Assembly (NCBI RefSeq): GCF_001586785.1
Contig: NZ_LUFH02000001.1
Coordinates: 1-64,000, forward strand
Source: Sphaerospermopsis aphanizomenoides BCCUSP55
Lineage (GTDB): Bacteria; Cyanobacteriota; Cyanobacteriia; Cyanobacteriales; Nostocaceae
Direction: 5' to 3'
DNA length: 64,000 nucleotides
The position numbers were made by a program, and so were the translations under genes. Under the pieces are notes generated by a model. It did not search any database. It worked only from the letters and a program-made list of their open reading frames with translations, and was not told where the DNA came from. Position 1 is the first letter of the stretch. The number at the start of each line of letters is the position of its first letter. Shown here in pieces: positions 4,076 through 14,297 of this stretch.

Positions 4076-6961
4076 ATGCTTAATTCAGCATTTTCTTCAG
4101 GTAAACCATCTGTGGGGATGCGTTTAACTCGAACCATGAGTACCATCGAGACTTGGGGTTTTGGGTTAACTGGTCATATCCTCTGGATTGCTGTGATTCC
4201 GGCTATTCATGCTGAACTTAAATCACAAGCTATTTTTGTGTGGGTACCAGCAGTTTGCTTTGGGATGTTGTTAAATTATCAAGTTAAACATCTGGGAAGA
4301 AGCTGGCAAAATGTGGCTGGAGGCACGCCTAATTACGCTTGTCGGTTACTTAAACAATACCCTGGTTTAGCTCTCTATGCAGCTTTGGGGTATTTTTTTA
4401 GTTGGGTGTCAGTGTTGCCAGTTAATGCAATTGTGCTGACAGACTTGATTAAAGTTAATTTAGAAGCTGTCAACCTGACTTTACCTACGCCACTACTATC
4501 AATTGCTTTGACATTATTACCTTTCATTCTAGCATTTAGTGGCACGCGTGGTTTAAGTATCCTGCATTTATTTTTTGTGATTCCGGCAGTCGGGTTATTA
4601 CTGTTATTTACTGGCCAAGGTTTGGGTTGGTTATTGTTTTCCCCCAACAGTCCTGGTTTGTTTCCTGAACAGATGACAGTACCAGGTTTTGCTGATTGGG
4701 CTAAGTGGTTTTTATATGTTAGTTATGCCACCTACGCTTGCGAAACAGCTTCTGCTTTTGTTGCTGACAGCATACATCCCACAAAAACTCTCTCCTTTCT
4801 TTCCATTGCTAGTTGGTTGATGATACCTATTTACATAGGTGCTTCTTGGGTGGAAACAAGGTTAGGAACATCTATCAATACAGACAATGGGGCGTTTTTA
4901 AGCTTGTTGGTTTCTTCCCAACACTTTTGGGGAAAATATGCTGGTCTTTTAGTCACCTTTTTATTGGCAGCTTCCTGTTTATTGGCATCTGCAACAGTTG
5001 TTTCTAACTGTCCTCGAATTCTCTATCAACTTGCTGTTGATAAATATTTGTCATCTGTATTCGCGGTTGTATCTCGTCGAGGTGTATTCGGTCCAGCGTT
5101 AACATTGACGTTAATTCTTAGCCTAGCCTGTTTAATTTGGGGTAACGTTCCTCAAATTCTTGTAGTTGGAAATTTGGGCTGGTTTATTTCTATCATGGCT
5201 GTACATTTGGGAATATGCTTGAGAAGTGATAAACCACAGGTTTTGTTTCCCCGGTTAACATTGGTTTTATTTTTATTAGAAATATCTGTACTCCTGATAG
5301 GAGGAATAGCTTGGGGTTGGCAAGATTTTCTAATTGGGTTGTTTGTTCCGGTAGGGATTATCGCTATAGATCAACTGATTCGTCGCTTGCGGTTGCCTCT
5401 ATTTAATGCTAATTGGTGGGTACAAAAATATAATTATCGTCCCTGGATTAATGTCCATGAATCACTTATTTACCAAGTAATTACTCTTATCTCTCTACTG
5501 AGTAGTGCAGTAGTTATTGGTTGGTTATTTGGGCGTAAATTCAATACTTTATATGATCAAGGAACAGAGAATTTAATAGTTGTTTTACTGATGATAGTGG
5601 TGTTTGTGGGTGTGGCGATCGCCTGTTGGACAAGTCTACCACAAGTTGTCTCTATGGCAGAAGCACAATCAGCCGCAGAACACTTATTTAACTTTGCCCA
5701 AGATGGCATTTTAGTAGTTGATGAAGAAGGTATTATTCGTCAGGCTAATGCAGCTACTACTAGTTTTTTCGGGATACAATCATCAGATTTATTAGGAACT
5801 TGTTTGCAAATATGGCTGGTAGATTTAGACCCTTACCCGTTTAATTGGCCAACTCGTAGTGAACACACTATTATTCAAATATCTCATGTCAAAACTGTGG
5901 AAGTTTCTGTGTCTGACCAACCACATCAAGACTTTCAAGAGTATATTGTAATTTTGCATGACATTACCCAGCGCAAGCAAGCAGAAGAACTCTTAATCAA
6001 CTCAGAAGCAGAACTTAAACATAAAGCTCAAAAATTAGCTGCCCAATTAGTCCAAAGTGAAAAAATGTCTAGTTTAGGACAGTTAGTAGCTGGTGTAGCA
6101 CACGAAATTAATAACCCAGTTAGCTTTATTTATGGCAATCTTGACCCTGCTGATGAATACATTAGAGATTTAATTAGATTAATAAATCTTTATCAACATC
6201 ACTATCCTCAGCCAGTTAGAGAAATTACCAACTTAGCAGAAGAAATTGATTTAAATTATATGCTTAATGACTTGCCTAAGTTGCTAAATTCTATAAAAAT
6301 GGGTAGTCAAAGAATCAAAGACATTGTTTTATCTTTACGTAATTTTTCCCGTTTAGATGAAGCAGAAATTAAACTAGTGAATCTCCATGAAGGTATTGAA
6401 AGCACGTTACTAATTTTGCAAAATCGTCTGAAAGCCAATAATAAACGACCCGCGCTTACCGTAATTAAAAAATATGCAGAATTACCTTTAATAGAATGTT
6501 ATCCTGGGCAACTTAATCAAGTATTTATGAATCTTTTGGTCAATGCCATTGATGCCCTTGATGATGCCTTTGTTAACCATAAAAAACATCAAGAACCGCA
6601 AATTAATATCCAAACCACCATCACAACTGATCATCAAGTTTGCATTACTATTACTGATAATGGTCGTGGTATTCCAGAAGATAGCCAAAAACATTTATTT
6701 GAACCTTTTTTCACAACTAAACCTGTTGGTAAAGGCACTGGTTTGGGATTATCCATTAGTTATCAAATTATCGCAGAAAAACATGATGGTAGTTTAGAAT
6801 GCTTTTCAGAGGTTGGTCAAGGCACAAAATTTGTAATTACTATTCCTCTGCAACAAAAAAAATCTAACTCCAAATTTCAAAATCAATTATCCGATAAACT
6901 TTACGTCAAGCCTGCGGCATACCAGAAAAGCACAGTTCCTCTGCAAGATGTACAAAATTAA
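4076..6961 (+). CDS. Amino-acid permease / PAS / histidine kinase fusion
   Basis: This 961-residue protein joins an integral-membrane transporter-like module to a sensor kinase. Residues of about 15-510 form some 12-14 hydrophobic segments resembling the APC (amino acid-polyamine-organocation) superfamily, starting with '[15 protein letters not shown]'. Residues of about 530-640 are a PAS domain ('[20 protein letters not shown]') followed by '[12 protein letters not shown]'. A short coiled coil leads to a HisKA motif '[17 protein letters not shown]' with the predicted phospho-His at 676. A complete HATPase_c follows (N box '[10 protein letters not shown]', G1 'DNGRGIP', G2 'GKGTGLGLS'). The architecture suggests a transporter-derived receptor (transceptor) that phosphorylates a partner regulator, but no regulator gene is adjacent. 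Its kinase core closely resembles that of the GAF kinase at 51628-53601. The ligand is unknown, and whether it still transports is unknown. Confidence 0.85.
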
Positions 6962-6982
6962 AAATTAGTAGTTAATAATTCA

Positions 6983-7175
6983 GGAGTTACGCAAAATCAG
7001 GAAAAAATGCTCCCGTGCAAGCAACTTCATAAGCGTCAGACCGAAAAATAGTTTCAAACCTCTTCTCTGTTTGATAGAATTTTAGGACTTACGTAAGATT
7101 GAACTCAAAACCTGATTCTTGCGTAGAGGTAATTCATGAATTACCCCTACTTCCGTTCTGTTTTGCGTAAGTCCT
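6983..7175. mobile_element. MITE-like inverted-repeat element(s)
   Basis: AGGACTTACGTAAGA at 7084-7098 faces TTTTGCGTAAGTCCT at 7161-7175, giving imperfect terminal inverted repeats around a 92-bp unit without coding capacity. A further direct partial end (AGGAGTTACGCAAAA, 6983-6997) lies upstream, so the whole may be a nested or composite insertion. The same ends bound the element at 7505-7655. Confidence 0.65.
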
Positions 7176-7198
7176 GAATTTATCAGAATTTAATTTAT

Positions 7199-7245
7199 CT
7201 GTGGAATTAATCCAAAATCTAAAATCCAAAATCCAAAATCCAAAA
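7199..7245. repeat. CCAAAAT heptamer tandem repeat
   Basis: Four to five degenerate copies of a (T)CCAAAAT heptamer. The same motif recurs at about 42141-42163 and 55739-55778. Confidence 0.65.
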
Positions 7246-7257
7246 TTCTGATCACCA

Positions 7258-7560
7258 ATGCCTAAAAAACAAAAGTTTCCTTATTTACTAGGTTCTAAGT
7301 GGACAGCACAACAAAAAGTTGATGGTTGGCGACATTTTCAAGTCATTAACCGCAAAAATCAGGGTAAATGGGTATATGCCGAAATGGTTGCTGCTTGTGA
7401 CCCAAATGTGCGCTTTTGGATCAATGCCAAATTATTACAAGATAATTCTCAATGGCACGCCGGCTGGCAAACTTTACAGGAAATCAATGCCATTGAAAAA
7501 AATCAGGACTTACGCACAGAATCTTTCGTCAGGGCTGGGTGTAAGGGTGTAGGGGTGTAG
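7258..7560 (+). CDS. Trp-rich small conserved protein (TIGR02450-like), C-terminus altered by a MITE
   Basis: This 100-residue soluble protein has evenly spaced tryptophans ('SKWTAQQ', 'DGWRHF', 'GKWVYAEM', 'RFWINAK', 'QWHAGWQTL'). That pattern matches the small Trp-rich conserved family (TIGR02450) of cyanobacteria and marine bacteria, which has no established function. Family homology seems to end near residue 82. From nucleotide 7505 the frame runs into a MITE-like element, which supplies the last 18 codons and the stop; these read low-complexity 'VRAGCKGVGV'. The conserved core is intact, so the gene may still function. The ATG at 7258 gives the expected N-terminus. Confidence 0.7.
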   Translation: MPKKQKFPYLLGSKWTAQQKVDGWRHFQVINRKNQGKWVYAEMVAACDPNVRFWINAKLLQDNSQWHAGWQTLQEINAIEKNQDLRTESFVRAGCKGVGV

Positions 7561-12626: not shown

Positions 12627-14297
12627 ATGAAACGTCTTTACTACGGTGATAATATCCAAATGCTTAGAGAAAATATTCCTAATGAATCTATTGATCTAAT
12701 TTACCTTGATCCGCCTTTTAATTCTAAAGCTAATTATAATATTCTCTTTAAAAATGCCACGGGTGAAGGTTCAGAAGCGCAAATTACAGCTTTTGAAGAT
12801 ACCTGGACTTGGGGAATTGAATCAGAAAGATTTTTAGACGAAATTCAGGAAAAGAAAGGTGAATTATATCAATTATTAGATTTATTAGTCAGAACATTAG
12901 GAAAAAATTCATTATCAGCTTATTTGGTAATGATGGCAATTAGATTAATAGAACTACATCGAGTTCTGAAATCTACAGGCAGTTTATATTTACATTGTGA
13001 TACTACCGCAAGTCATTATTTAAAAATGATTTTAGATTTAATATTTGATGCCAGAAATTATCGTAATCAAATTACTTGGAAACGTACTAGCAGTCATAGT
13101 GATGCTAAAAAATATGCTAGAATTACAGATATTATTTTCTACTATGTCAAATCTAACAAATTTACTTGGAATCCTCAACGGTTGAGTTATTCTGAAGAAT
13201 ATATCAAACAATATTATTGTAATATTGATAGCGACGGGAGAAGATTTCAATTTGATAATTTAACCAACCCGAAAACTAGCAAAGGTTATTTTTATAAACT
13301 GTTAGATTGTGATCCTCCTGAGAACGGTTGGAGAATGCCAGAATCTCGCGCCGAAGAGTGGCTAAGTCAAGGTAAAATTGCTATACCATCAACAGGGAAA
13401 ACACCACGTTATAAACGTTATTTAGATGAGGTGCAAGGTAAAGTCATTCCTGATATTTGGGATGATATACCACCTATTAATTCTCAAGCTAAGGAAGCTT
13501 TAGGATATCCTACCCAAAAACCACTATCATTGTTAGAAAGAATTATTCAAGTTAGTAGTAACCAAGATGATATAATTCTTGATCCATTCTGTGGATGTGG
13601 AACAGCAATACACGCAGCAGAAAATTTAGGCAGAAATTGGATCGGTATTGATATTACTCATTTAGCAATTTCTTTAATAGAAAAAAGATTAAGAGATGCT
13701 TTTCCAAGTAAATTTATTGAAGACGAAAATAAAAATCAAAAATTAGTACCAGGGATAGAATTTGAAGTTGAAGGTACACCGAAAGATTTAGCCGCAGCAA
13801 TAGATTTATTTAACAGAGATGCTTATCAATTTCAATGGTGGGCGTGTTCTTTGGTAAATGCACAACCATATAAAGATAAAAAGAAAGGTGCAGATGGGGG
13901 AATAGATGGTTTAATCTTTTTTGAAGATATCATAGATATCAAAAAATCAAATAAAACCGCAGTTAAAAAAATCATTGTTAGTGTGAAAGGTGGAAAAAAT
14001 ATTAACGCATCTATGATTAGAGATTTGCGGGGTACAATGGAAACCAATAAAGCTGATATTGGATTATTTCTTACTCTCACACCTCCCACTCAACCAATGA
14101 TTAAAGAAGCTGCATCTTCTGGTTTTTATAAAGCAGGAAATGGCAGAAATTACGCGAAAATTCAGATTTTAACTATTGAGGAATTATTAACAGGAGAAAA
14201 ACGACCAGAATTTTTTGATATGAAACAGGGAGAGTTGACATTTAAAAAAGCACAACGGGAAAATCAAGATATAGCGGAACAGGGAGAATTGTTTTAG
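12627..14297 (+). CDS. DNA methyltransferase fused to an Mrr-like nuclease domain
   Basis: The 556-residue product starts with a beta-class N4/N6 methyltransferase: catalytic DPPF at residues 28-31, a long target-recognition region, then the SAM-binding 'DPFCGCGTAIHAAENLGRNW' beginning at residue 319. After about residue 390 comes a second module with 'GADGGIDG' (421-428) and 'VSVKGG' (451-456). Their spacing matches the D...(Q/E)xK core of Mrr-type PD-(D/E)xK endonucleases. It could be a single-chain restriction-modification enzyme or a modification enzyme with a DNA-binding Mrr-like tail. The acidic residue of the ExK half is replaced by Ser-Val-Lys, so cleavage activity is uncertain. No separate restriction or specificity gene is adjacent. 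Upstream DNA is AT-rich and holds toxin-antitoxin-like genes, suggesting horizontal gain. Confidence 0.85.
   Translation: MKRLYYGDNIQMLRENIPNESIDLIYLDPPFNSKANYNILFKNATGEGSEAQITAFEDTWTWGIESERFLDEIQEKKGELYQLLDLLVRTLGKNSLSAYLVMMAIRLIELHRVLKSTGSLYLHCDTTASHYLKMILDLIFDARNYRNQITWKRTSSHSDAKKYARITDIIFYYVKSNKFTWNPQRLSYSEEYIKQYYCNIDSDGRRFQFDNLTNPKTSKGYFYKLLDCDPPENGWRMPESRAEEWLSQGKIAIPSTGKTPRYKRYLDEVQGKVIPDIWDDIPPINSQAKEALGYPTQKPLSLLERIIQVSSNQDDIILDPFCGCGTAIHAAENLGRNWIGIDITHLAISLIEKRLRDAFPSKFIEDENKNQKLVPGIEFEVEGTPKDLAAAIDLFNRDAYQFQWWACSLVNAQPYKDKKKGADGGIDGLIFFEDIIDIKKSNKTAVKKIIVSVKGGKNINASMIRDLRGTMETNKADIGLFLTLTPPTQPMIKEAASSGFYKAGNGRNYAKIQILTIEELLTGEKRPEFFDMKQGELTFKKAQRENQDIAEQGELF

Follow-up and report, generated by a model that had tools for sequence, protein, structure and literature searches.

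A single reading frame in the window, by which we mean the whole 64,000-nucleotide stretch of Sphaerospermopsis aphanizomenoides DNA analysed here, joins a membrane domain of predicted APC fold to a PAS domain and a complete histidine kinase, and related cyanobacterial proteins carry this membrane domain in front of several other outputs. The best explanation, which we regard as probable, is that an APC-superfamily (SLC7/LAT-like) transporter has been repurposed here as the input domain of a membrane-bound sensor histidine kinase.

Domain layout and predicted fold of the fused protein

The frame (4076-6961, + strand) begins with ATG and runs without interruption for 961 amino acids. Its features, with the evidence used to place each, are as follows.

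4076..6961, + strand: APC-fold sensor histidine kinase gene, 961 aa (ORF, Pfam, genome-sample matches)
4115..5434, + strand: predicted APC/LAT-fold 12-helix domain, residues ~14-453 (VIA-align, AA_permease match, LysP profile match)
4724..4780, + strand: helix-6 family motif, residues 217-235 (Y217, Y220, C222, E223, F228, D231, P235; conservation in 126 distinct sequences)
5465..5632, + strand: predicted extra transmembrane hairpin outside the APC core, residues 464-519 (AlphaFold2 models, hydropathy)
5561..5695, + strand: predicted helix 496-540, leading from the last membrane segment to the PAS domain (DSSP of models)
5624..5644, + strand: near-invariant CWTxLPQ at the membrane exit, residues 517-523 (conservation in 126 sequences)
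5681..5965, + strand: PAS domain, residues ~536-630 (Pfam; AlphaFold2 strands 544-629)
6047..6346, + strand: HisKA/DHp helices, residues ~658-757, with His676 at 6101-6103 (Pfam, model, motif position)
6509..6853, + strand: HATPase_c domain, residues 812-926 (Pfam, 7.6e-27)

Pfam matched PAS at residues 536-577 (5.9e-6) and HisKA at residues 667-690 (1.2e-6) of the window protein. The motif HEINNP starts at residue 676 and supplies the phospho-acceptor His676, and the ATPase motifs NLLVNAID (819), DNGRGI (861) and GTGLGL (887) follow, so that both the acceptor histidine and the HATPase motifs of a HisKA histidine kinase are present. The sequence-only reading had described one uninterrupted frame with an APC-type membrane part, PAS, HisKA (His676) and HATPase, and the ORF, Pfam and motif evidence bears this out. 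Its estimate of about 500 residues of APC helices holds for the fold and not for the extent, which is ~14-453, residues 464-519 being an additional hairpin outside the APC matches.

The kinship of the membrane part to transporters is weak by single sequence and clear by profile. AA_permease was matched at residues 78-374 of the window protein (6.1e-5) with 22.3 bits, just below the 24.6-bit cut-off, and the scores of the window protein against it ranged from 22.3 to 24.3 bits, all under that cut-off. Since a single-sequence phmmer search of residues 1-520 found no match in the PDB, a family profile was needed; the profile of 48 members matched Pseudomonas aeruginosa LysP (E 8.7e-6), a LysP (9eyd) being its best PDB sequence match. 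Among the 48 members, 35 matched AA_permease and seven AA_permease_2 (E <= 0.1). Profile-profile comparison (hhalign) with 25 ordinary cyanobacterial APC permeases gave a probability of 98.2 % (E 4.9e-14); these controls are 25 of the 31 loci L183-L213, four of the larger frames (740-767 aa) and two sensors having been left out. The SSF (SLC5) family was not matched in Pfam at E <= 1 by the window protein or at E <= 0.1 by the 48 members, and the GerAB-type spore-permease profile was not among the four families that these members matched at E <= 0.1.

Structure prediction, proposed in the sequence-only reading for the joined protein, models the N-terminal part as a 12-helix APC/LeuT-type fold. 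An AlphaFold2 model of residues 1-660 built from 35 sequences (mean pLDDT 84.0, pTM 0.76) retrieved 196 PDB chains with Foldseek at E <= 0.001. VIA-align superposed this predicted model on y+LAT1 (8xyj; Z 34.9, 433 residues, rmsd 3.5 A), AdiC (3l1l; Z 34.3, 396 residues, 3.4 A) and ApcT (3gia; Z 33.5, 406 residues, 3.5 A), with fold matches spanning about model residues 13-453. The ion carriers NKCC1, KCC3 and KimA are also among the fold matches, so the fold does not by itself imply an amino-acid ligand. The domain belongs to the APC superfamily by its predicted fold and its profile matches; we file it there and not among the amino-acid permeases because the helix-1 feature described below was looked for and not found.

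Occurrence, genomic neighbourhood and outputs of the family

An APC-type sensor had been called rare in the sequence-only reading, which does not hold for cyanobacteria: a match was present in 39 of 386 genomes of a phylum sample (28 of 142 by genus), with at least one full-length copy in 34, and in 12 of 40 genomes of a sample of relatives, the window's genome being included in both samples. The phylum sample yielded 53 places, of which 43, in 34 genomes, are full-length, each in a frame of at least 822 aa; since at most three candidates were scored per genome, copies may have been missed and 43 is a lower bound. The remaining 10 places are partial or weak, and some are interrupted by stops. 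With at least 43 full-length places that are each one frame, the fused architecture is no chance product. Among the scored matches of the 386 genomes there was no full-length relative without a fusion; two weak partial matches sit in frames of 497 aa.

When genome_contigs (84,980 species) was scanned with a pattern, 229 relatives were confirmed, and the best 80 of these all have cyanobacterial names, going by record titles (Nostoc, Cylindrospermum, Tolypothrix, Calothrix, Leptolyngbya, Microcoleus, Oscillatoria and others). No match was found in 72,556 plasmid records. Copies may be multiple within one genome: G129 has three sensor copies in a row, and the window's genome has a second copy, 51 % identical, beside what we take to be the tmk and holB genes.

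In the window, the sensor gene lies next to a divergent upstream gene that we take to be clpB; downstream come a DUF2389 gene, a gene that we take to be chlL, and a DUF5331 gene. None of the direct neighbours was recognised as a response regulator, which makes a partner encoded elsewhere plausible, in agreement with the distant regulator proposed in the sequence-only reading. Genome G014 has the clpB-DUF2389-chlL locus in common with the window (clpB and chlL both 95.6 % identical) and holds only sensor pieces there, from which we conclude that the window's place is shared and that the copy decayed in G014. The remnant lies in L089 (G014:C1:2390000-2404000) at about 6253-7295. Partial sensor pieces occur also in L087, L088, L090, L091 and L092, and the pieces at L087-L092 suggest repeated loss of the sensor in the family.

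Receiver or receiver-kinase genes lie directly 3' of the sensor at L060, L061 and L046. At L060 (2052-14649, - strand), three tandem sensors are followed by one receiver-only and two receiver-kinase genes, a possible phosphorelay cluster. Two further gene arrangements were recorded. At L103 (10856-17378, + strand), genes for a periplasmic-binding-like receptor-domain protein and then for hydantoinase/oxoprolinase A and B lie 3' of the sensor. Many Nostoc copies have a similar arrangement nearby, and the hydantoinase A/B genes there were taken as carried gene order. Elsewhere in the window (12627-14297, + strand), one gene fuses N6/N4 DNA methylase and Mrr-type restriction endonuclease domains (Pfam), and its product is possibly a single-chain restriction-modification protein.

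The family is modular, a feature missed in the sequence-only reading. Behind the APC domain, the 131 full-length rows (47 from genome samples, 83 from public contigs and the window) carry a HisKA kinase in 104 cases, GGDEF-EAL in 14, a hybrid kinase-REC in 10, a SpoIIE phosphatase in two and a HisKA_2 kinase in one, as assigned by Pfam for 30 C-terminal halves (including 10 of 10 hybrids, six of 14 GGDEF-EAL, both SpoIIE and the HisKA_2) and by motif for the others, so that plain-kinase rows assigned by motif could hide a receiver. Three of the 104 kinase rows are incomplete, L156 being without a kinase in frame and L162 and L171 being cut short. Removal of five duplicates leaves 126 distinct rows (101, 12, 10, 2 and 1, in the same order). 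Pfam found no PAS in at least L072, L076 and L138 (kinase), L061 and L160 (hybrid) and L071 (GGDEF-EAL), and the APC part stays in all of these.

On a quick maximum-likelihood tree of the APC part from 78 representatives, the output label needs eight changes, the least possible being four, and well-supported branches force at least six changes for the kinase label and at least three for the hybrid label, gains and losses of outputs being indistinguishable on this tree. The GGDEF-EAL rows form one group, and the two SpoIIE rows are not sisters. The window copy has a long end branch (0.41, compared with 0.14 for its sister). Relaxed constraint in this copy was considered and set aside: it has four deviations at 89 conserved columns, the median being one and other copies having up to 12, which is not striking. 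The domain remains the same across swaps between unrelated outputs and was not seen in the sample as a full-length protein of its own, the pattern expected of a sensory input domain; the APC-fold part thus looks like a reusable sensory input module with several outputs.

The substrate site, the membrane exit and the proposed signalling path

The sequence-only reading had proposed a check of whether the APC substrate-binding residues of helices 1 and 6 are kept: the helix-1 Gly-x-Gly is not, and helix 6 carries a nearly invariant motif of its own. Each glycine of the helix-1 Gly-x-Gly is present in 17 of the 25 control permeases and absent from eight, and in the one profile alignment on which this comparison rests, the 126 sensor sequences have Ser (44), Leu (35), Gly (26) or Ala (12) at the first place and Trp (W37) in 122 at the second, with the next two control positions missing. 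In helix 6, conservation among the 126 sequences is 117 for Y217, 116 for Y220, 111 for C222, 122 for E223 (Asp in four), 124 for F228, 121 for D231 and 125 for P235, and the motif is nearly invariant across output classes. DSSP assigns helix 6 as helical to residue 231 in one model and to 228 in the other. R314, Q318 and D322 are invariant in the 126 sensors, in a stretch that we assume to resemble the conserved APC loop after helix 8. The helix-5 Lys of the Na2 site does not discriminate as a transport marker, being present in none of the 126 sensors and in only three of the 25 controls, and was not used as evidence because the controls are mostly without it too.

Helix 6 thus appears, from these alignments, to be strongly constrained, and helix 1 to have departed from the amino-acid permease pattern. 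Since the helix-1 Gly-x-Gly is not kept and the helix-6 motif is near-invariant, a receptor with its own ligand seems likelier than an ordinary uptake system.

Behind the predicted APC core, hydropathy indicates a hydrophobic hairpin of two helices (464-490 and 496-519), the second of which leads to the PAS domain, and the models place this hairpin where SLC5-STAC kinases carry the STAC bundle. The CWTxLPQ at its end is conserved in 119 (C517), 125 (W518), 126 (T519), 124 (L521), 123 (P522) and 126 (Q523) of the 126 sequences. The exit helix is continuous in the model of residues 1-660 and broken at 520, inside CWTxLPQ, in a full-length model, which was built from 25 sequences and is weaker (pLDDT 76.2, pTM 0.56). 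This break may be a hinge, although local confidence is low, the ten-residue means over 451-540 being 57-78 and 50-74 in the two models.

Under the preferred reading, a central pocket formed partly by helices 1 and 6 would bind a small solute, which is probably an amine or a derivative of an amino acid, and transport would have been lost or reduced. A transporter-type motion would then pass via the two-helix hairpin and the CWTxLPQ helix to the PAS domain and on to the DHp helices, where the change would alter autophosphorylation of His676; the phosphate would go to a response regulator encoded elsewhere in the window's genome. In other lineages, the same input would act on a receiver within the protein, on a regulator encoded next to it, on the turnover of c-di-GMP or on a SpoIIE phosphatase.

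An alternative is that the domain has a double function like that of CbrA, being a working transporter that also tunes its attached kinase. The predicted 12-helix fold is complete, and the SLC5 part of CbrA transports histidine and modulates the kinase according to passages of PMC7096432; the departure from Gly-x-Gly in helix 1 counts against it, as does the finding that the scored matches of the 386 genomes included no full-length relative without a fusion, and we judge such a double function unlikely.

A receptor for histidine or histamine would be compatible with the preferred reading. Inspection of 126 loci (the window, 45 genome stretches and 80 contigs, some with short fetched flanks) placed a histidine-decarboxylase-cluster (HDC) gene 63-996 bp from the sensor in 21, and three HDC-like proteins tested against NF002748 (NCBIfam) scored 536, 423 and 421 bits, above its cut-off of 305. 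All 14 GGDEF-EAL loci and kinase-type L126 have the gene downstream in convergent orientation; at six kinase-type loci it lies upstream on the same strand, with gaps of 221-261 bp. Identity between HDCs of these two groups is 46-49 %, the linkage occurs in two sensor clades and the trait needs two changes on the tree. It weighs against the lead that the loci are not independent, each clade counting as one event, with L170 and L173 duplicating L065 and L067 and with L125 and L131 coming from one strain. At L120 the HDC frame has just 237 aa, and one predicted ORF lies between sensor and HDC at L067, L069 and L173. In the 386-genome sample, HDC occurs in eight genomes and lies beside the sensor in six of these.

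Against a histidine or histamine ligand stand the lack of any HDC in the window's genome at E <= 1e-60 and in the fetched flanks, some of them short, of 105 of the 126 loci, together with the putative nature of the HDC activity: two examined HDCs of the GGDEF clade are missing the His of the SGHK motif and keep its Lys. HDC-like enzymes of this kind, of uncertain activity, are encoded at L047 (11794-12945, - strand) and L069 (13545-14696, - strand). A search of the open-access literature gave nothing relevant on cyanobacterial histidine decarboxylase among the matches listed. The sequence-only reading had proposed an amino acid or polyamine as the candidate ligand, and the HDC genes beside two other sensor clades are the one genomic lead to it. 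We hold HDC to be a ligand lead for the HDC-linked clades and no ligand assignment for the window sensor, and the histidine or histamine receptor to be a doubtful choice.

It is very improbable that the APC part does no more than anchor or scaffold the protein in the membrane while the PAS domain senses an internal signal. PAS does sit between membrane and kinase, and in CbrA the kinase can function in the absence of the transporter domain (PMC7096432), but an anchor would not need a helix-6 motif that is nearly invariant across output classes, and the APC part is kept at the loci above where no PAS was found.

Relation to known systems and possible meaning for cyanobacterial sensing

By design, the SLC5-STAC kinases CbrA, CrbS and RpuS are the closest systems, in that a LeuT-fold transporter domain is joined to a kinase, CbrA having the order PAS-DHp-CA. 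They differ in having an SLC5 domain and a soluble STAC bundle where the window family has an SLC7/APC-type domain, without an SSF match, and a predicted membrane hairpin. CbrA is a precedent for sensing by such folds in bacteria (PMC13022988, PMC7096432), and SLC5-STAC is also known with a diguanylate cyclase output (PMC7096432). Compared with these kinases, the window family is cyanobacterial and has EAL, SpoIIE and HisKA_2 outputs too.

By fold and role together, GerAB is closest, as a bacterial APC-superfamily receptor. It is the B subunit of the GerA germination receptor, and PMC8617281 gives evidence that it is an L-alanine receptor. Unlike the window protein, GerAB is a separate subunit that acts with GerAA and GerAC and has no kinase fusion, and its helices 1 and 6 both need Gly, whereas the cyanobacterial sensors do not keep the Gly-x-Gly of helix 1. 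LysP, which gave the family profile its best sequence match in the PDB, is a working transporter and a protein of its own; it signals to CadC (PMC7096432).

APC-superfamily proteins serve as nutrient sensors in eukaryotes as well. Yeast Ssy1 is one of them, and Ssy1, Gap1 and SLC38A9 are not known to be fused to two-component or c-di-GMP outputs. Excerpts of two papers describe yeast Gap1 (PMC11109136) and mammalian SLC38A9 (PMC8617281) in this role. One passage calls strict membrane transceptors oddities, ahead of that paper's own S-component case (PMC11109136), and the available part of a census of signalling proteins mentions a permease once, in its reference list (PMC1183210). A search of the open-access literature gave no description of a cyanobacterial APC-kinase fusion among the matches listed, which is no proof of absence. 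Taken together, the family would work like the SLC5-STAC and Ger receptors, but it forms a lineage of its own and has a wider range of output types.

We also considered, as a bolder and rather unlikely extension, that in cyanobacteria one APC transporter became a receptor dedicated to a single class of ligand (histidine, histamine or a related amine), wired to phosphorelay, c-di-GMP and protein-phosphatase outputs. If true, bacteria would have a family of APC-fold receptors in addition to the Ger receptors. Few bacterial cases in which a transporter fold has turned into a receptor have been worked out, and a family in which the fold is kept, the helix-1 site is changed and the outputs are swapped offers many naturally occurring variants in which to study how motion of the LeuT fold is turned into a signal. 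It points to a candidate sense for nutrients or amines in cyanobacteria resembling Nostoc and Oscillatoria.
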